Source: Anaerolineae bacterium
GTDB lineage: Bacteria; Chloroflexota; Anaerolineae; JACIWR01
DNA: 52,804 bases
Reading direction: 5' to 3'
NCBI GenBank assembly: GCA_024653325.1
Contig: JANLFX010000013.1
Span: 1 to 52,804 of the forward strand
In this document: positions 32,538-43,894 of the stretch, piece by piece
How the letters are laid out: every line of letters starts with the position of its first letter
Position numbering within the stretch: the stretch's first letter is position 1
Position numbers and translations under genes: made by a program
The notes under the pieces: generated by a model
What the model was told of the DNA's origin: nothing
Database searches by the model: none
Seen by the model: only the letters and a program-made list of their open reading frames with translations

Positions 32538-34385
32538 TTACTGGTTGCTGGTTGCCAGCTCCCTGGCCATGTCTTCTAAGCCCAGGGCTGCGAGGCGCTC
32601 GCGCGCGGGCCTGCCGGTGAGCGGGTCCCAGCCGCGCCAGGCATAGTACTCGTCCATCAGCCGGTCCATATCCGGGACACGGCCTTCGGCACCGCCCCCG
32701 GGCAGGGGCTGTAAGAGCAATTGGGGTAAGCGGTCATCGGCAGCGGAAAGGCCCAGCCGCACGTTGATGATCCGCTTGAGGTTGAAGGCCCGTTCGCCCA
32801 GGGGTAGCAAATCCTCGAGGGCCAGGTCCCAGCCGGTGGCCGCGCTGAGCATGCCCCGGGTAACAGAAGCCGGTGGGTTGGCGAATACGCACATGATCAG
32901 CGCGTTGTACAGCGTGCGCCAGTCCTGCTGGCGGGCAGTGATCCGGGCCTTCTCCGCCGAGGACTCGAAACGATCGCCCATGACAATGCCCAATTCCTCT
33001 TGTTGCAAGCCCTGATCCACCAGGTACATATCGCCCTGGTTGTGACACGCCCCTCGCGGTCCGGTGGCATAATTCACCGCCATGCCAAAGAAAGCGCGCG
33101 GGTCGTGCATGGGCACTTCCAGGCCCTTGACCTGCACTGCTAATTCTTCGACACCGAAATGCCGGGCCACGGCCCGCGAGCCCTCGGCCAGCAGGTCGCC
33201 GAAACCATAACGATAGGCGATCATCTCCATGAGACGGATGGCTGTTTCAGCATCGCCCCAGTGTAACTCCAGACCACCGGTGTCCCGGGTGGTGATAAGG
33301 CCCTGCTCATACAGGTAATAGGCCAGGGCGATGGTCACCCCGCCGGTGATGGTATCCAATCCATAGCGGTTGCCCAGGTGATTGATGTAGGCGATGGCCG
33401 GCAGGTCGTCCACCAGGAGCAGCGAACCGCAGGCGGCTATCGTCTCATATTCCGGGCCGTCCACCCGGCTCAGGCCATACCGCTCGCTGATGTCGGTCAG
33501 CCGCCCACAGGCGATGGGACAGCGATAGCAGGCCACATTTTTAACCAGGATGGTCTCGGCCATGGTCGCCCCGCCGATGGGAGTGACGTTCATCTCGGCT
33601 CCGGTGAAGTAGCGGCTGGGCATGTCACCAAGCATCATCAGCATCTCGGCGCTACCCGCCGTGCCCATCAGGCGCAGAATCTCTGTAGTGAGGTCTTCTT
33701 TAATGGCCTCGCGTGCCTGTTGTACATAATCTCTGAACGCTTGCTCGTCGGCCAGGGGCACCTTCCCCGTTCCGCGCACGGCGATGGCTTTCAGGTTTTT
33801 ACTGCCCATCACCGCGCCCATGCCGGTGCGACCTGCCGCGCGCCCCGCGTCGTTCATCACCGCCGCGTACTTCACCAGGTTCTCGCCCGCCGGGCCGATA
33901 CAGGCTACCCGCGCCTGTGGCTCGCCCAACTCCTGACGGATGGATTCCTGAGTCTGGTAGCTATCCTGCCCCTGCAGGTGACTGGCATCGCGCAGTTCGG
34001 CTAGACCGTCTTTGATCCACAGGTAAACCGGGTGCGCGGCCCGCCCGGTGAGCAGGATGCCGTCGTATCCGGCGAATTTGAGTTCCGGCCCCCAGTAGCC
34101 GCCGGAATTGGACTCACCCCAGATGCCGGTCAGCGGCGAGCGAGCACAGACGACGTAGCGCCCGCACGAGGGGGCTGCTGTGCCCACCAGGGGCCCGGTC
34201 ATGAACATCAACGGATTCTCCGCCCCCAGGGGATCGGTCTGCGGGGTGATGAGGTCATAGAGATAGCGGGCTGCCAGTCCACTGCCGCCCACGAACTGGC
34301 GCGCCCAGTTCAGATTCAAAGACTCGTCTGCAATGTGGCCGTTGCTCAGGTCCACGCGCAGCAGCTTGCCCATGTAGCCACTCAA
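32538..34385 (-). CDS. Aldehyde:ferredoxin oxidoreductase family (tungstopterin) enzyme
   Basis: GKLLRVDLSNGHI, FVGGSGLAARYLYD, GRTGMGAVMGSKNLKAIAV, CYRCPIACGR; TTG start after GGAGG proposed. Confidence 0.95.
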   Translation of the reverse strand: MSGYMGKLLRVDLSNGHIADESLNLNWARQFVGGSGLAARYLYDLITPQTDPLGAENPLMFMTGPLVGTAAPSCGRYVVCARSPLTGIWGESNSGGYWGPELKFAGYDGILLTGRAAHPVYLWIKDGLAELRDASHLQGQDSYQTQESIRQELGEPQARVACIGPAGENLVKYAAVMNDAGRAAGRTGMGAVMGSKNLKAIAVRGTGKVPLADEQAFRDYVQQAREAIKEDLTTEILRLMGTAGSAEMLMMLGDMPSRYFTGAEMNVTPIGGATMAETILVKNVACYRCPIACGRLTDISERYGLSRVDGPEYETIAACGSLLLVDDLPAIAYINHLGNRYGLDTITGGVTIALAYYLYEQGLITTRDTGGLELHWGDAETAIRLMEMIAYRYGFGDLLAEGSRAVARHFGVEELAVQVKGLEVPMHDPRAFFGMAVNYATGPRGACHNQGDMYLVDQGLQQEELGIVMGDRFESSAEKARITARQQDWRTLYNALIMCVFANPPASVTRGMLSAATGWDLALEDLLPLGERAFNLKRIINVRLGLSAADDRLPQLLLQPLPGGGAEGRVPDMDRLMDEYYAWRGWDPLTGRPARERLAALGLEDMARELATSNQ

Positions 34386-34403
34386 TATGTCCTCCTTCGG
34401 TAG

Positions 34404-34422
34404 GGCAGGCTCGCAGCCTGCC
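34404..34422. repeat. Palindrome GGCAGGCT-CGC-AGCCTGCC
   Basis: Direct reading, in the AOR leader. Confidence 0.7.
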
Positions 34423-34503
34423 AACGCCCCGTGGTAGGCGAAGGTGTCCTCACCGAGCCCCTTTCGCCTCGGTCGGGAGACCTTCGGCGATCAGCCGCGC
34501 CTA

Positions 34504-35667
34504 TCAGAAATCCACCTCCTTACCCGCGAAGGCATAGCGATACAGGCGCTCGATTTCCGCGGTGGTAGCCATCCGGGCGTTGGTCAGTGCCGATGCGTCT
34601 AACTCAGTCTTTTCCGTCAGTTCCGCCAATGCCGACTCAAAGTCATCAGCGCTGATGCCCAGCTCCGGCAGAGTGACCGGTTGCCCTATCCTGCGCATCA
34701 ACTCCCGAATGCGGTGGGCCAGCACGTATGCCGCGCGCCCGGCGGGCTCAGGTTCCATGCCGAGAAAACACACAATTTCGGCCAGGCGCTCACCAGCCTC
34801 CGCGCGCGTGAATTCCAGCACGTAGGGCAACGCCAGGCCCACCGCCCGCCCATGAGGGATATGCCAGACCGCGCCCATGGTGTGGCCCATAGCGTGGGCC
34901 AATCCCGTCACCGAGTTGCCGAAGGCCATTCCCGCGATTGTGGCCGCGTTGTGCATCTTTTCGCGGGCCTCGGCGTCGCCGCCGTCGGCATAGGCGCGGG
35001 GCAGGTATTCGAAAATCAATTGGATGGCTTTAAGAGACAATCCATCGGAGAAATCATTGTGCCAGGTGCTGATATAGGCCTCTACGGCATGTGTCAGGGC
35101 GTCCATGCCGGTATCGGCGGTGATCTGTGGCGGCAGGTTGATCACCAGACTGGGGTCCACGATAGCGATGTCGGGCATGATCTCCGGGTTTAGCAGGGCC
35201 AGTTTGCGCCGGCTCTCCAGGTCGGTGAGCACCAGGTACCAGGTGGTTTCGGCCCCCGTGCCGCTGGTGGTGGGGATGGCGATCAGGCGGGCCTTCCGGC
35301 GCAGCCCCAATTTGTCGAAAGGGTTGATCCCGGCAGGGTCGGCTTCGGGGTTTTCGTAGAGGAACCACATCGCCTTGGCCGCGTCCATACTGGAACCCCC
35401 ACCCAGGCCGATAATCCAATCCGGGCCGAATTCACGCATGGTCTGCGCGCCCCGGCGCACCGTCTGCAGCGAAGGGTCGGGCTCCACCTCGGCGAAGACT
35501 GCGCTTTCCATGCCGGCGGCCCGCAAATGCTTCTGGATAACCTCCACAAATCCCAGGCTGGCCAGGGTGGGATCGGTGACAATGAAAGCCCGCTGCCCCT
35601 CCAGTTCATCGAGATGGCTCAGAGCATCTTCGCCGAACACTATCTCCGGGGTTCGAAAATACCACAT
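34504..35667 (-). CDS. Iron-containing alcohol dehydrogenase
   Basis: GLGGGSSMDAAKAMWFL, TTSGTGAETTWYLVLTD, DALTHAVEAYIS, GLAHAMGHTMGAVWHIPHG. Confidence 0.95.
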   Translation of the reverse strand: MWYFRTPEIVFGEDALSHLDELEGQRAFIVTDPTLASLGFVEVIQKHLRAAGMESAVFAEVEPDPSLQTVRRGAQTMREFGPDWIIGLGGGSSMDAAKAMWFLYENPEADPAGINPFDKLGLRRKARLIAIPTTSGTGAETTWYLVLTDLESRRKLALLNPEIMPDIAIVDPSLVINLPPQITADTGMDALTHAVEAYISTWHNDFSDGLSLKAIQLIFEYLPRAYADGGDAEAREKMHNAATIAGMAFGNSVTGLAHAMGHTMGAVWHIPHGRAVGLALPYVLEFTRAEAGERLAEIVCFLGMEPEPAGRAAYVLAHRIRELMRRIGQPVTLPELGISADDFESALAELTEKTELDASALTNARMATTAEIERLYRYAFAGKEVDF

Positions 35668-35694
35668 CAGATTACACTCCTTCCGGCCTTCCAC

Positions 35695-36105
35695 CTACTC
35701 CAGGAACTCGGTCTCAATCTTGGTGCAGGAATTAACGATCTCGATGGCGGCCTTGGGCACTTTCATCACCCTCATCATATCGCCCTTGAGCTTGAGCTTG
35801 CGGGTCATCATCCCCTGAATGGGATCAAGTTGCTTTTCGATCACCTTTCGCCAGGTGCTCATTGGGGCCGACATCCGGTAAGCGGGGTTTCTTTCGTCGG
35901 GGTTTTTGGTAGCGAACGCCTCGCGGCACTTGCCGTGCCACAGGTCCATGTACAGGTAGATCGTCTCGGTCAGGCTGCCTTCCGGTTCGACGATGAAGTA
36001 GAAATCACCCTCCCAGTCCTTGGCGGCCTGTGCGTAGGCTTCGTTAGCGTTGAGTTGCGCGCACAGAGCCTTGATCCATTCGTCAGTTGCAAATTTAATG
36101 GCCAT
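35695..36105 (-). CDS. SCP2 sterol-binding domain protein
   Basis: Lipid-transfer fold pattern; LKLKGDMMRVMKVPKAAIEIVNS. Confidence 0.8.
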   Translation of the reverse strand: MAIKFATDEWIKALCAQLNANEAYAQAAKDWEGDFYFIVEPEGSLTETIYLYMDLWHGKCREAFATKNPDERNPAYRMSAPMSTWRKVIEKQLDPIQGMMTRKLKLKGDMMRVMKVPKAAIEIVNSCTKIETEFLE

Positions 36106-36266
36106 TGATGTCCTCCATAGAAATCTCCTTATACACATTTGAGCTCAAAGTTCCAGGTCCAAAGTTACCTTCTGCAAAAAGGCTCTTTTTACCACAAAGG
36201 ACACAAAGTACACGAAGTATAAAGTTGCGAGCTTACCATTCGCCAGCCACCCACCCACCTAACTAC

Positions 36267-37046
36267 CTAACTACCCACCCACCCTCCCGCCACCTGCCGC
36301 AACACATCCGGACGATTGGTGATAATCGCATCCACTCCCAGGTCCAAAAGACGGCACATCTCGTCGGGGTCATCTACCGTCCACACGTTGATCCGATAAC
36401 CTCTGGCTTTCACTGCCCGGACATAGGCCGGGGTAACCATAGTGAAATCCGGGTGACGGGCCTCGTGAGGAGCCAGGGGCGCAAGCCAGGCTCGCCGCAA
36501 GTAAATCGGCAGGTTGTGAGCGTAAAGCAGGCCGGTAGGGATACGCGGGTTGAGGGACTTGACCCGTCGCAGGGCCAGGGGGTGGAAAGAGGAGACGATC
36601 ACCCGATCCACCAGATTGTTATCCTCAATCAACCGCACCACCTCTGCTTCCAACCCCGTGTTCACCAACGTAAAGGGGAGCTTAAGCTCGATGTTCAGCA
36701 GCAGGCGATAGCCGACGGCATCCATCACCTCTTGCAGGGTCGGGATGTGCTCGCCGGCAAAAGCGGCGTCGAACCATGATCCGGCGTCCAGGGCCTGCAA
36801 CTCGGCCAGTTTTTTTTCGGCCACCGGGCCGCTGCCGTCGGTGGTGGCGTCCACAGTAAAGTCGTGGATGACCACCACTGCGCCGTCTTTGGAGAGTTGC
36901 ACATCCAGCTCCACGCCATCGGCGCCCAGTTCCGCCGCCAGACGGAAAGCGGAGAGGGTATTGGCCGGAGCCCGCGCGCTGGCCCCCCGGTGGGCGAAGT
37001 TCAACACACGCCCTTGGTAAAAGTAGTCCAGGTTTTCAGCGGGCAT
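36267..37046 (-). CDS. Glycerophosphodiester phosphodiesterase
   Basis: FAHRGASARAPANTLSAFRLAAELGADGVELDVQLSKDGAVVVIHD. Confidence 0.95.
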   Translation of the reverse strand: MPAENLDYFYQGRVLNFAHRGASARAPANTLSAFRLAAELGADGVELDVQLSKDGAVVVIHDFTVDATTDGSGPVAEKKLAELQALDAGSWFDAAFAGEHIPTLQEVMDAVGYRLLLNIELKLPFTLVNTGLEAEVVRLIEDNNLVDRVIVSSFHPLALRRVKSLNPRIPTGLLYAHNLPIYLRRAWLAPLAPHEARHPDFTMVTPAYVRAVKARGYRINVWTVDDPDEMCRLLDLGVDAIITNRPDVLRQVAGGWVGS

Positions 37047-37069
37047 CTAAGATCAACCTATACACAGAC

Positions 37070-37154
37070 AAGTTCAGAGTTTCAAGTTCAAGGTTCAAGG
37101 TTTTTTTATCACCCCCGCCTGAAACCTGTAACCTGGAACTTTTAACCCAGAACT
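37070..37154. repeat. Imperfect inverted repeat AGTTCAGAGTTTCAAGTTCAAGG...CCTGTAACCTGGAACTTTTAACCCAGAACT
   Basis: Direct reading. Confidence 0.55.
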
Positions 37155-38448
37155 ATATCTCCACGAAATACGCCTCGCACGCCCGGTCAATCAGGTCACG
37201 GCTGAGCACCGGCTCCACGTTCAGGTAGCGGGCGATGTCTATCAGTTCATCCACAATGTCACGCGGCTGGCAGGCCCGCAACGGACGCCCTGGTTTAAGA
37301 TAGTGCTCCCTGAGCAAATATGCCAGGGCTTCATCGTCGTAAGGCACGCCGCGCGCCTTGCACACCCGTTTGAAAATCTCCCGATACTCCTCGAAAGTCG
37401 GATCGCCAATGTAGATTTTGTGCCGGATGCGGCGTAGAAACGCCTCGTCCACCAGGTCCTTGGGCTCCAAATTGGTGGAAAAGACGATGAGTACCTCAAA
37501 AGGCACTTCGATTTTGCGCCCGGTGTGCAGGGTCAGATAATCCACTCGCTTCTCCAGGGGCACGATCCAGCGGTTGAGAAGGTCGCGGGGCCGTACCTGC
37601 TGTCGCCCGAAATCGTCAATGAGAAGCATCCCGCCATTGGCCTTCACCTGGAAGGGGGCCTCGTAGTATTTGGTAGTCTCGTTGTAGGTCAAATCCAGCC
37701 CATCCAGGGTAAGCTCACCACCAGTAATGACCACTGGTCGGTGGACCAGCACCCAACGCTGGTCGAGATTAGCGCGTCCCCGAGCTTTTTCTCGTGCCTC
37801 ATTGCTTTCCTCCACCCGTTGATGGCTGGCCTCATCGAACACCTTAATGATTTGCCCATCTACTTCAATGGCATACGGCACGTAAATGTCGTTCTGGAAC
37901 ACCATCCGACCAATGCTCTCGGCAATCGAGGTCTTGCCATCGCCGGTGGGCCCATACAGGAAGATAGAACGACCGGAATTAGCCGCCGGGCCGATGCGGC
38001 TGAAGGCATCCTCATTGATCACCAGATGGGCAAGGGCTTTACGCATGGCCCGTTGGTGGATAGTGACACTGGAAAGGGGTTGCTGGCGCACAGCATAAGT
38101 GTAGGCTTCCAAAGTAACCGGGGCCGGACCGACGTACTCGCTGCGGTCCAGGACTTCGCGCGCTTTCTCGCTCCCCTTGCTGGTGATCATGTACTGGTAG
38201 GCGGCAGCGCCCAGGCCGCCCGCGCCTTTGACCTCTATATATTGTTCCCGCTTGAGGAACTCCAAGACCTCTTCAACCACCCTGGCAAAAGGCAGCTTGA
38301 CTCGTTCTGCGATCTCGTAGCCAGTGATGTGTCCCACGAAATATATCACCTTGAGCACCAGATCGGAGATGAATCCCAGGTTGAGGCCAGAATCCTCAAT
38401 GGAATTTACCGGAGGCGGTTCGAAACCCAGTGCTTCCCCGTCCGTCAT
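37153..38448 (-). CDS. MoxR-like AAA+ ATPase with N-terminal winged-helix-like region
   Basis: FLYGPTGDGKTSIAESIGRMV Walker A, GGMLLIDDFGRQQV Walker B, sensor IVFSTNLEP. Confidence 0.85.
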   Translation of the reverse strand: MTDGEALGFEPPPVNSIEDSGLNLGFISDLVLKVIYFVGHITGYEIAERVKLPFARVVEEVLEFLKREQYIEVKGAGGLGAAAYQYMITSKGSEKAREVLDRSEYVGPAPVTLEAYTYAVRQQPLSSVTIHQRAMRKALAHLVINEDAFSRIGPAANSGRSIFLYGPTGDGKTSIAESIGRMVFQNDIYVPYAIEVDGQIIKVFDEASHQRVEESNEAREKARGRANLDQRWVLVHRPVVITGGELTLDGLDLTYNETTKYYEAPFQVKANGGMLLIDDFGRQQVRPRDLLNRWIVPLEKRVDYLTLHTGRKIEVPFEVLIVFSTNLEPKDLVDEAFLRRIRHKIYIGDPTFEEYREIFKRVCKARGVPYDDEALAYLLREHYLKPGRPLRACQPRDIVDELIDIARYLNVEPVLSRDLIDRACEAYFVEI

Positions 38449-38451
38449 GGC

Positions 38452-38853
38452 TCAGCCCTCGTTCTGTTCCTGCGGCTGGCTCTCGGTCAAGGCCCGGCGA
38501 ATTGTGGCCAGGAGATCGCGCACCACGAAGGGTTTGACCACGTAGTCGTAGAATTGCCCCTTGTGCTCGAGGACGCTCTGGATGTTTTCCCGCTGCTCGC
38601 GGGCGGTGAGCATGATCACCGGCAGGTCACGGAAGGCGTTGTCAGACCTAATTTCATCCAGCACTTCCCAGCCGTCCATTTCGACCATCATGATGTCCAG
38701 CAGGACCAGGTCTACCTGGTTTGTGCGCAATATCTGTAGTCCTGTGGGGCCATCGTAGGCGGACAGCACCTCGTAGCCGGCCCCTTCCAGCATGAGACGG
38801 CCCAGAGCAACCATGCCCTTGTCGTCCTCGATCATCAAAATGCGTTTGGTCAT
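38452..38853 (-). CDS. Response regulator receiver-domain protein
   Basis: MTKRILMIEDDKGMVALGRLMLEGAG...VDLVLLDIMMVEMDGWEVLDEIR...VIMLTAR...DYVVKPF. Confidence 0.92.
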   Translation of the reverse strand: MTKRILMIEDDKGMVALGRLMLEGAGYEVLSAYDGPTGLQILRTNQVDLVLLDIMMVEMDGWEVLDEIRSDNAFRDLPVIMLTAREQRENIQSVLEHKGQFYDYVVKPFVVRDLLATIRRALTESQPQEQNEG

Positions 38854-38890
38854 CTCGCCCTCCTGTTGGAAGTCGGGTTGGCAACCCGGC

Positions 38891-40363
38891 CTACGGCGCG
38901 TAGCGGAAGGGATGTCTTGCGGATTCTTTCTCGTTGAGCAGCTCGTCAAGCTGCGGTCGGTTCTCCAGGGCCTTGCGGATGGCCGCACGCATGGCCTTGT
39001 AATTGTTGAAGGCGATGCGTGTGCGAATGGCCGCTGCCGGGTGAACGAAGACATTGGCGATCATACACAAATCGTCCAGCGCGTCTTGGGGAAGCACTCC
39101 GGCGGCGATTTCGTGTTCGATGGCCAGGTTCACACCGCGGGCGGCCTCCTCGTAAACGTGCTGGCGCTGCTTCTGAGTGCGCACTGTGACCGTGGGCACC
39201 AGCAGGGTGCGGGGTCGCTCGCAGATGACGCGCAACTCATGGCCGGGGCGTGGTTCGGTCAGCGCACGCTCTAAGGCCCGTCCCACGGGGCCGTCTTTGA
39301 GGCCCAGCAGCAGGTCAATGTGGGCAATCTCCTGGAATGGCGGGCCGGCGAAGCCCTCACCCACCTTCATGGTGAAATCCGCGAAGCGGGCCGGGGTGCG
39401 GGGAATGGCCGGAAAATCGCTGGTGTACACCTGCCCGTTTATCTCGAACTCACGACGCACGCGGGGGATCTTGCCCAGGTCCTCCAGTTGGATGCGCAGC
39501 TCCTCGCGGTCCTCGCGGCGGAAGGCGCCGCCGGGCATGATGGGATGGCGCGAATTGCTCATCACCAGGCCCATCATTTGCAGGCCCTCTTTGATGGCCT
39601 GCGTCGGCCCATTGCGGGAAAGGATGCGCACCAGTTTTTGAATCCTGGCCTGCCACATCTGCGCTGTGGCCAGATCGCCCCGCTGAACGGCGGCATAGAT
39701 TTCCTGGTAGATGTCGGGAATGAGATTGCCCCCGGCCAGGATGGCCCCGTCGGCGCCGGCGGCCAGGGCCGCACATAGCATCTCGTCGTGGCCGACGAAG
39801 ATGCCCACCACGCCTTTCACTTTCTCGAACAGGGCTTCCATGAAGGGCATATCGCCGCTGGTATCCTTGATGCCCACCACGTTCTCGAAGTCCCTGGCCA
39901 TGCCCTCCGCCGTCCACCACCGGTAATGAGTGCCCGCGCACTGGGGAATGTTGTACAGGATGAGCGGGATGCCCACCTCGTTGAGCGCCTCGTAGTGCTC
40001 GTATACCTCGTTGAAGGTGGGTTTGAGATAGTACGGGGCGGCGACCAGGGCCGCCGTCGCTCCGGCGTCGCGCGCCCAGGTGGTGAGAGCCACCGTCTCG
40101 CGGGTGCTGGGACAGGCCGTGCCGGCCACCACCGGTACCCGCCCGTTCACCTCATCCAGACAAATCTCGATCACCTGTTTGCGCTCATCCATGGAAAGAT
40201 ACGGGAACTCGCCCGTCGTCCCGCAGGGCACGACGCCGTTCACGTGAGGCAACACGTGGCGGATAAGGGCGCGAAAGGCTGCCTCGTCAACCTCATCCTG
40301 CGCAGTGAACGGCGTCACCAGCGCGGGAAAGATGCCTTTGAACCAGTTGGGTTTCTTGGTCAT
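38891..40363 (-). CDS. DapA-family (class I) aldolase/synthase with C-terminal Fae-like domain, copy 1
   Basis: N-terminal DapA motifs CGTTGEFPYLS, LYNIPQ, VGIKDTSGD; C-terminal MKVGEGFAGPPFQEIAHIDLLLGLKDGPVGRALERAL...VNLAIEHEIAAGVLPQDALDDLCMIANVFVHPAA...NNYKAMRAAIRKAL aligned by eye with Fae. Confidence 0.85.
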   Translation of the reverse strand: MTKKPNWFKGIFPALVTPFTAQDEVDEAAFRALIRHVLPHVNGVVPCGTTGEFPYLSMDERKQVIEICLDEVNGRVPVVAGTACPSTRETVALTTWARDAGATAALVAAPYYLKPTFNEVYEHYEALNEVGIPLILYNIPQCAGTHYRWWTAEGMARDFENVVGIKDTSGDMPFMEALFEKVKGVVGIFVGHDEMLCAALAAGADGAILAGGNLIPDIYQEIYAAVQRGDLATAQMWQARIQKLVRILSRNGPTQAIKEGLQMMGLVMSNSRHPIMPGGAFRREDREELRIQLEDLGKIPRVRREFEINGQVYTSDFPAIPRTPARFADFTMKVGEGFAGPPFQEIAHIDLLLGLKDGPVGRALERALTEPRPGHELRVICERPRTLLVPTVTVRTQKQRQHVYEEAARGVNLAIEHEIAAGVLPQDALDDLCMIANVFVHPAAAIRTRIAFNNYKAMRAAIRKALENRPQLDELLNEKESARHPFRYAP

Positions 40364-40485: not shown

Positions 40486-41913
40486 CTACCCTTCACTGCC
40501 AAACGCTTGCCGGATAGCTTCACTCATTGCCTGACGGACGTTATGATACAGAGTGTGGCGGTCCAAAGCCCGCGGATGCACGCTGGCCAGCACGATCATC
40601 ACCTGGGTGTCCATCGCCGATGCGGGAATTACCCCGGCCTCCAGCGCGTCCACGATGGCCCGCGCCACGGCGGATTGGGTAGGGCCGTAGATCATGTTCG
40701 CCTGGCGCAGGTTCTTCTGCTCCAGCGTGGGCAGGATCAGCGTCGGCGGGCGGACGGTGAGGTTGGGCTCCAGGATCGTGGTCAGCGCCTCGCGGCGGTG
40801 CAACGGGTACGTGAGCTGATAGGCGTAAGCCTCACCCAGCGGCGAGTCCTTCGGCCCGGCGATGAGGTCGAGTTGCACGCATTCCGGCTCCTCGCCCGCC
40901 GCGCCCGTGCCCAGTCGCAGCTCTGCCTGGCGGATGATCTCCGGCGACAACTCTAAATCGCCAAACCGCTCCTCCAGGGGCCCGGTGGGAACCTGGAAAT
41001 CGGGATAGGAGTTTTGCACCTTGCCCAGCTTTTCCAGTTCCAGCTCGATCTCGGCCCGGTCCTCATGCAACAGGGCCCCGCCCACACTTTTCAGCGGCCG
41101 GCGGGGGCGACCGGTGTCCACGCCCATCATTTTCAGCGCCTGTTTGACGGCCACGCCGCCCCCGTAGCGACAGAAGATGCGCGACAGCTTCTGCACGCTG
41201 CGCTGCAACTGGCGGGCGCGGGGCAAATCACCAGCCTGAACCGCCGCAAAAACCTGCTGCCACACTTCCGGGTAGACCTGGGCACTGGCCAGAATCATGC
41301 CGCTGGCCCCGCCGGACAAGGCGTTCAGCACCACCTCGTCATGACCGACGAACACGTCAATGCGGTCGCCGCAGAACTCCAGCACTTCCATCATGTAAGG
41401 CAGGTCGCCGGAGCTATCCTTGAGGCCGACGATGTTGGGGATGTCGGCCAGGTCCTCGACGACGCGGCGCGGCAGGTAGGCATCCATCACCTGAGGGATG
41501 TTGTATAACAGGATAGGGATGTCCACTGCACGGGCGATTTCGTAGAAATGCTGGTACACGCCCTTATCCGATGGATGCAGGAAGTACGGGGTGACGATGA
41601 GACAGGCGGTAGCTCCTGCTTCTTTCGCGTCACGGGCCAGTTCAATGGCCTGTCGTGTGGACGGCGCACCTGCCCCGGCGATGACTGGCTTGCCGCTCGC
41701 TTCCTCGACGGCAATTTCTACCAGCCGTTTTTGTTCCTCCCTGGTCAGATACGGGAATTCGCCAGTAGTCCCGCAAGGTACCAGGCCATCTACGTGGGGC
41801 AATACATGCCGAATCAGGTGGCGGAAAGCCGCCTCGTCAACGTTCTCCTCCTTATCGAAAGGCGTCACCAAGGCGGGGAAGACGCCCTTCATCCACGGTA
41901 CTTTCACCGGCAT
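40486..41913 (-). CDS. DapA-family (class I) aldolase/synthase with divergent C-terminal Fae-like domain, copy 2
   Basis: CGTTGEFPYLT, LYNIPQ, VGLKDSSGD; C-terminal LRLGTGAAGEEPECVQLDLIAGPKDSPLGEAYAYQL...VARAIVDALEAGVIPASAMDTQVMIVLASVHP...HNVRQAMSEAIRQAF. Confidence 0.8.
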   Translation of the reverse strand: MPVKVPWMKGVFPALVTPFDKEENVDEAAFRHLIRHVLPHVDGLVPCGTTGEFPYLTREEQKRLVEIAVEEASGKPVIAGAGAPSTRQAIELARDAKEAGATACLIVTPYFLHPSDKGVYQHFYEIARAVDIPILLYNIPQVMDAYLPRRVVEDLADIPNIVGLKDSSGDLPYMMEVLEFCGDRIDVFVGHDEVVLNALSGGASGMILASAQVYPEVWQQVFAAVQAGDLPRARQLQRSVQKLSRIFCRYGGGVAVKQALKMMGVDTGRPRRPLKSVGGALLHEDRAEIELELEKLGKVQNSYPDFQVPTGPLEERFGDLELSPEIIRQAELRLGTGAAGEEPECVQLDLIAGPKDSPLGEAYAYQLTYPLHRREALTTILEPNLTVRPPTLILPTLEQKNLRQANMIYGPTQSAVARAIVDALEAGVIPASAMDTQVMIVLASVHPRALDRHTLYHNVRQAMSEAIRQAFGSEG

Positions 41914-42780: not shown

Positions 42781-43731
42781 CTACGGTTTCGGGATAGCCA
42801 GATCCGCCGGACCCAGTGCGGACATCCTCAGTTCGGGGTTGTTTTCCTGGATGATCTCGTGGATAATCTGGGCGTATTTGACCTTGGCGCGCCCCCATTC
42901 GGCCAGCATCGCCTCGCCAACCCACGGCTTGTAGAGAGCAGCACCGGTGGCCGCACAGGCCGGTCCAGGTTCGATCTTGAAGTAGCATGGCGCGCAAACG
43001 CGGGCCATTTCGGGGCCATCGTAGAAGCGAGTGTATCCGCCAAAACTTTCGGTGAGGAGAATGTGTAGGTCCAGGGGGATGTTCACCGCCTGACGGATGG
43101 CGGCTAATTGGGGCAGGGTAAGGTCGGCGACGGGGTTGAAAGTGCCTGCGCCCAGCATTTCCAGCACCTTGCCTCCAGCGGCATTGGCATGTCCGGCGTA
43201 GATAGAGACCTTGAAGGTCACGTCCTGGGGAATATCACCGTTCTTTTTCATCTCGTTGAGCAGCCAGAGCAGGCCCTCATCAATGACCAGGAAGCCCCTG
43301 AACCCGAGGTCAATGCAGGTCATAATGTCGGTGATCACCTGGCGCAATTGATCGGAACCCCGGAAACGCAGGCCCGAAAGACTGCCCTCCGGCGTAATGG
43401 GTTGCCGGCCAATATCCCAGGCGGCGCGCGGGCCTGGGGTGAGAATTACCTCCATTCTTGCCTCGGCCGCCATCTGGGCAAAATCGCGCAGTTCGGCCTT
43501 GTCCAAAAAGGTGGCGCCCATTACTACCGAAATCAAGCGGTGAATGGGAATCTTGCGCTTCTGCGATTCATCAATCACCGCCTCCAGCACTGCTGGCCGT
43601 TCTATACCCGAGATCTCCATCCGATAGTGAGCTCCGTCCGGGAAGCGCTTGCTGCTGCTTGGCAGATCGTAAGCATCACGGCCGGGGATGCCCACTTTCT
43701 CCATCGCCTTTGATACCTTGTTCATCTCCAT
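42781..43731 (-). CDS. Peptidase U32-like TIM-barrel protein
   Basis: LGFRGFLVIDEGLLWLLNEM, DVTFKVSIYAGHANAAG, PLDLHILLTESFGGYTRFYDGPEMARVCAPCYFKIEPGPACAATG. Confidence 0.65.
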   Translation of the reverse strand: MEMNKVSKAMEKVGIPGRDAYDLPSSSKRFPDGAHYRMEISGIERPAVLEAVIDESQKRKIPIHRLISVVMGATFLDKAELRDFAQMAAEARMEVILTPGPRAAWDIGRQPITPEGSLSGLRFRGSDQLRQVITDIMTCIDLGFRGFLVIDEGLLWLLNEMKKNGDIPQDVTFKVSIYAGHANAAGGKVLEMLGAGTFNPVADLTLPQLAAIRQAVNIPLDLHILLTESFGGYTRFYDGPEMARVCAPCYFKIEPGPACAATGAALYKPWVGEAMLAEWGRAKVKYAQIIHEIIQENNPELRMSALGPADLAIPKP

Positions 43732-43894
43732 TGATGTTCCTCCTGAATTTTCTCTGCAAGTGGATGTGCACTTACCGTTGAAAAAAGCCATTCAATATGC
43801 CTGCATTTTACCATCTTGTGAGCTTACAGTCAAGCGGATTAAAAACATCGGGTGTATTTTCACTTTGGGGGCGAGTTGCTGCTGTGCCCTGGCC

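Follow-up and report, generated by a model that had tools for sequence, protein, structure and literature searches.

Two Adjacent DapA-Fae Fusion Genes on the Minus Strand

The stretch of DNA analysed here (the window, 52,804 nucleotides) carries two neighbouring genes that each join a DapA-family aldolase to a domain of the formaldehyde-activating enzyme (Fae), together with a third conserved gene, named gene X here. Their features are the following:

38891..40363, minus strand: copy A, DapA-family aldolase plus Fae domain of the His22 type, 490 aa from ATG
39530..40342, minus strand: copy A class I aldolase (DHDPS family) domain; Pfam DHDPS at residues 8-278, E 1e-71
38906..39364, minus strand: copy A Fae domain; keeps His22, Asp24, Thr73 and the HPF tail, without the PNL loop and GPxQ88
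40486..41913, minus strand: copy B, likewise a DapA-Fae fusion (475 aa), immediately upstream of copy A
41083..41889, minus strand: copy B class I aldolase domain; catalytic Lys/Tyr/Thr intact, Pfam DHDPS E 5e-74
40492..40908, minus strand: copy B Fae domain; His22 replaced by Gln and no C-terminal tail, keeps the PNL loop, RQ and GPxQ88
42781..43791, minus strand: gene X, conserved protein, predicted TIM barrel, probable start 43731

The preliminary description, in which copy B was overlooked, had read copy A as a class I DapA-family aldolase followed by a Fae domain, and both assignments were borne out. Besides the Pfam match listed above, the aldolase part has the Lys, Tyr and Thr residues (the Lys166 codon lies at about 39866-39868), and residues 334-486 match Pfam Fae (PF08714; E 3e-35, 122 bits, cut-off 27). 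The NCBIfam model TIGR03126 (one_C_fae) gave 131.6 bits, above its equivalog cut-off of 118.05, and the C-terminal part alone matched the Fae of PDB 1y5y over its full length (phmmer, E 1.9e-21). In an AlphaFold2 model (mean pLDDT 90.7) the first ~295 residues match DHDPS structures (TM 0.95) and the C-terminal domain is alpha/beta; since DapA-type structures crowd the fold search, being the only ones among the top 50 matches listed, the Fae fold of this domain rests on sequence. The same fused frame recurs in the congener G399 at 93% identity and in dozens of independent genomes. Chance, or an artefact of frame or assembly, was ruled out by the profile matches, by this recurrence and by the low dN/dS reported below.

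Copy B is likewise recognized by Pfam Fae (E 8e-33, 114 bits, cut-off 27) and is homologous to 1y5y over the whole length (E 7e-17), with a TIGR03126 score of 111.2 bits, slightly under the 118.05 cut-off. Copies A and B hold the sole Fae domains of the 3.86-Mb host genome. Since the Fae domain of copy A lacks the GPxQ/PNL segment that copy B supplies, the functional unit is probably the pair.

Gene X (~313-336 aa) precedes copy B or a single fusion in 13 related loci, bacterial as well as archaeal; at L085, with A and B on different contigs, it still overlaps the start of B. No family match was found for it in Pfam, NCBIfam or PDB sequences, and a fold search with a medium-confidence model returned generic TIM barrels only (TM about 0.45). 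A paralogue 37% identical to it (G000:C77:14122-15009) adjoins IclR, cupin and creatininase-like genes. Around the related loci no conserved operon partner other than gene X was found. Downstream of the pair, on the same strand (32538-38862 of the window), lie genes for a response regulator, an AAA-type ATPase, a GDPD phosphodiesterase, an SCP2-like protein, an Fe-alcohol dehydrogenase and an aldehyde ferredoxin oxidoreductase. These genes are not conserved near other pairs; the pair of L037 also adjoins an aldehyde oxidoreductase-like gene.

Distribution and Gene Order

Within the phylum, fused copies occur in 3 of 399 genomes (the host's own, G192 and G011), always two in each, and also in the congener. 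Other Fae matches among these 399 genomes are short frames beside dehydrogenase or other genes. Short Fae-like proteins of other Chloroflexota (L003, L004, L005 and L008), encoded beside Zn-alcohol dehydrogenase, enolase-superfamily or other genes, form a separate Fae-like branch.

When 85,462 species genomes were scanned with the A-type Fae domain, 55 loci were obtained, mostly in Anaerolineae and related Chloroflexota, and also in Thermoplasmatota/Methanomassiliicoccales, Baldrarchaeum, a Brocadiia MAG, a MAG labelled Proteobacteria and Bathyarchaeota, a list that MAG binning errors may inflate and in which two archaeal records (L035 and L041) are single chromosomes. The B-A pair itself occurs in Chloroflexota and Thermoplasmatota, and also in one Asgard-type archaeon and one MAG of planctomycete type. 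The two genes are mostly neighbours with a constant order: of the 37 loci that could be assessed, 33 have B within 550 bp upstream of A and on the same strand, the reading frames overlapping in 13 of them, and in a few genomes the two genes stand apart. This patchy spread of an intact pair suggests that it has been transferred as a unit. The pair genomes (49 genomes scanned) contain two Fae domains, nearly all in frames of ~500 aa, and no stand-alone Fae; B accompanied A in every one of them except G408, at a contig edge. Bathyarchaeota carry a single, undivided DapA-Fae gene, in which the Fae domain obtains good scores from the A profile and the B profile alike.

Phylogeny and Selection

In an outgroup-rooted tree of the DapA domain the single fusions fall outside the A+B clade (support 99), within which A forms one clade (98) and B another (63), with broadly matching internal orders. 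In the Fae-domain tree, too, the A copies (100) and the B copies (99) each form one group; both trees are quick ones with SH-aLRT support only. These topologies indicate that fusion preceded duplication and that the pair was inherited together, and they put a single duplication later than the fusion. Against the congener, dN/dS was 0.05-0.06 for genes A and B (for A, about 0.05-0.06 over both domains) and ranged by domain from 0.03 to 0.10 in the two genes, with 0.05-0.10 for the Fae parts. By these ratios, purifying selection acts strongly on both halves of A and of B.

Residues of the Fae Site Are Divided between A and B

The active site of Fae lies between adjacent subunits, and its ligand and catalytic residues, in M. 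extorquens numbering, we take to be H22, D24, L53, K71, T73 and Q88. Among the A copies, H22 and D24 are kept in 48 of 48, T73 in 46 of 48 and the HP tail in all 48; P58 and Q88 are found in none of the 48, and the PNL loop is deleted. Among the B copies, the PNL loop is kept, as are P58 (37/38), G85, P86 and Q88 (38/38) and R78 and Q79 (38/38); H22 survives in only 4 of 38, being mostly Gln, T73 has given way to Glu or Pro, and 37 of 38 have no tail. The single Bathyarchaeal fusions keep H22, D24, P58, Q88 and the tail in seven of seven, and essentially all of the listed site residues but K71, which is missing from all fusions, the single ones included. The complete set was not found in one chain: A is without K71 and Q88, and B is without H22, L53, K71 and T73. 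Over the full set of 61 columns that the single fusions and canonical Fae conserve, complementary loss in A versus B was not significant (Fisher p 0.81), and our claim of complementarity is therefore limited to the named motif positions. A similar A/B split of the aldolase Tyr107 was considered and is not claimed; 26 pairs are Y/F, but 7 are F/F and 4 are Y/Y.

The Aldolase Half

Lys161, Tyr133 and Thr44/45 of the aldolase are kept in all copies except those of one archaeal lineage (L068/L072, of Methanomassiliicoccaceae/Methanomethylophilaceae type), in which the Schiff-base Lys is gone from both the A and the B aldolases and the split Fae motifs are kept; in this lineage MtnA-like and class II aldolase genes follow the pair. 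Arg138 of DHDPS, which binds the carboxylate of aspartate-semialdehyde, has been replaced, by Cys, Val or some other residue, in every A copy, B copy and single fusion, a loss that rules out a DapA of the lysine pathway, and Asp187 of DHDPS is His in the fusions. As read from these residues, the aldolase half is a class I pyruvate-type aldolase and not a DHDPS. The aldolase domains also have an invariant D-E pair after Gly-His (GHDE), at a position that binds the sugar hydroxyls in sialic acid lyase, and the invariance of this motif makes a larger acceptor possible. The formation of 4-hydroxy-2-oxobutanoate from pyruvate and formaldehyde is a known aldolase reaction (PMC8879981), and we name this compound as a tentative substrate. 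Such a reaction would account for the Fae partner in the way that Hps accounts for it in Fae-Hps (PMC5241800).

The C1 Carrier and the Host Genome

The C1 cluster of the host includes Mch, FhcC and Ftr above the NCBIfam cut-offs, an MptN-like ligase below it (285.7 vs 350) and genes resembling those of pterin synthesis; for beta-RFAP synthase the model gave sub-threshold matches only, one of them a mevalonate-kinase-like protein. The methanopterin C1 cluster at G000:C125 (L021:3749-12080), in a Chloroflexota-type genome without stand-alone Fae, comprises Mch, FhcC, Ftr, MptN-like, DHPS-like and PTPS-like genes. Since the host has methanopterin genes and no other Fae, the A/B pair is its only candidate for this enzyme. 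Mch was found in 13 of 49 genomes and FolD in 42 of 49 (weakly in two), and FolD was not found in any of the Bathyarchaeota searched, presence and absence in MAGs being imperfect for both genes. On this occurrence the single fusion goes with methanopterin and most pairs with folate. Methanopterin as the sole or general carrier was rejected, Mch being missing from most pair genomes, including the single-chromosome archaeal L035 and L041; tetrahydrofolate is probably the carrier in most of the other pair genomes.

Proposed Mechanism and Alternatives

It was proposed earlier that copy A hands an aldehyde from its aldolase to a C1 carrier. The intact aldolase site, the purifying selection on the Fae domain and the host's Mch, FhcC, Ftr and MptN-like genes in the absence of another Fae agree with this hand-over; one gene acting as a self-sufficient enzyme does not agree with the lack of GPxQ/PNL in copy A, for which both the aldolase substrate and the carrier are what we infer. 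The sequences give good support to A and B being partners, and an obligate partnership is in our view quite probable. That the chemistry concerns formaldehyde and a C1 carrier appears somewhat more probable than the contrary, and we give an even chance to the fuller hypothesis that B and A together make up one enzyme, as its two subunits, with a split Fae site and with formaldehyde passed between a pyruvate aldol and a pterin.

According to this hypothesis, one ancestral DapA-Fae fusion, of which Bathyarchaeota still have the single form, would have been duplicated and the two Fae domains would then have specialised, so that A would give the His22/Asp24/Thr73/tail side of the Fae site and B the side of the PNL loop, the Arg-Gln pair and GPxQ88, with a working site only where A and B domains meet. 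The aldolase half would make or break the C-C bond between pyruvate and formaldehyde (4-hydroxy-2-oxobutanoate being the best guess), and the Fae half would pass formaldehyde to or from a pterin carrier with no release on the way, the carrier being tetrahydromethanopterin in the host and in Bathyarchaeota and probably tetrahydrofolate in most other pair genomes. The heteromer, its shared site, substrate, direction, carrier and activity are all elements that we infer. A homopentameric Fae is ill-suited to a simple alternating A/B ring, and the loss of K71, the presence of Mch in only 13 of 49 genomes, the loss of Lys in L068/L072 and the few non-adjacent pairs count against two subunits of one enzyme.

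If the two halves had separate jobs, the Fae part (A+B) would trap the formaldehyde of the cell and the aldolase part would act on a larger 2-keto-3-deoxy acid or serve as an assembly scaffold, with no common aldehyde. The invariant GHDE, at the position that binds sugar hydroxyls in sialic acid lyase, would suit such a division, as would the L068/L072 aldolases that have lost the Schiff-base Lys beside Fae halves that retain the split motifs, and the aldehyde oxidoreductase and Fe-alcohol dehydrogenase genes downstream of the pair. We consider it unlikely, and favour coupled chemistry, because phyla from two domains of life have retained the fusion, in the single as well as in both paired forms, with the aldolase site intact in nearly all. 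It is improbable, in turn, that the Fae-like domains are no longer catalytic and serve an ordinary DapA-family aldolase as a ligand-binding domain for regulation or oligomerisation, the ligand being formaldehyde, a pterin or some other compound. The canonical site is incomplete in A and in B when each is taken alone, K71 is gone everywhere and Mch is absent from most pair genomes, which would agree with such a role; however, His22 is present in 48 of 48 A copies and Gln88 in 38 of 38 B copies, the dN/dS of the Fae parts is 0.05-0.10, the single archaeal forms hold a nearly full site and the methanopterin-bearing host has no other Fae. Finally, A might on its own be a complete Fae whose pocket has been remodelled, and B a paralogue, decayed or regulatory, retained for the aldolase tetramer, as the tail and the proposed general-acid His kept by A would allow, along with TIGR03126 scores of 131.6 for A, above the cut-off, and 111.2 for B, just under 118. 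This seems quite improbable given that the Fae domain of B is under purifying selection with essentially invariant GPxQ, RQ and PNL positions, and that B accompanies A in all scanned pair genomes but one (G408, at a contig edge).

If the two-subunit reading is true, the pair would supply the missing formaldehyde-entry step of those Chloroflexota in which methanopterin genes are present and Fae is not, would form a direct link from pyruvate metabolism to the C1 carriers and would stand as nature's counterpart of the engineered formaldehyde-pyruvate aldol step of synthetic methylotrophy. It would also offer a readable example of a duplicated enzyme that shares one active site over two subunits, with the undivided form surviving in Bathyarchaeota.

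Comparison with Known Systems

In the open literature searched, no description of a DapA-Fae fusion or pair was found, in line with the earlier remark that none had been reported; the pair is real and conserved, and apparently undescribed. It is possible, although doubtful, that this chimera of a pyruvate aldolase and Fae represents an undescribed enzyme class, which would comprise direct formaldehyde transfer between a 4-hydroxy-2-oxo acid and a pterin, an obligate two-subunit form derived from one fused gene with sites shared by paralogues, a spread over archaea and bacteria, and a tetrahydrofolate-using Fae in folate-only organisms.

With the class I aldolases of the DHDPS/NAL family (DapA, NanA, YagE) the fusions have in common the fold, the Schiff-base Lys, Tyr133 and Thr44, and they differ from them by Arg138 to Cys/Val, Asp187 to His and the C-terminal Fae extension. 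The stand-alone Fae of methylotrophs (1y5y, Methylobacterium extorquens) is homologous over its whole length to A (E 2e-21) and B (7e-17); unlike it, the fusions have an aldolase attached, Thr in place of K71 and site residues divided over two paralogues. An analogy already drawn in the preliminary description, and upheld here, is that with the archaeal Fae-Hps fusions, for which direct capture of formaldehyde on methanopterin has been proposed (PMC5241800). Copy A matches the Fae-Hps model NF009833 in its Fae part only (residues 332-486, 91.5 bits vs 274) and is without a hexulose-phosphate synthase domain. Some Bathyarchaeota carry both Fae-Hps and DapA-Fae; in two such genomes (L081 and L082) the Fae-Hps has an extra N-terminal segment resembling a helix-turn-helix. 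As in DapA-Fae, the Fae of Fae-Hps (NF009833; Methanospirillum, Methanosarcina) is fused to an aldolase that releases or fixes formaldehyde, but there Fae is N-terminal and its partner is Hps, of an OMP-decarboxylase-like fold, whereas in DapA-Fae it is C-terminal and joined to a class I pyruvate aldolase, and the fusion usually comes as two complementary genes.
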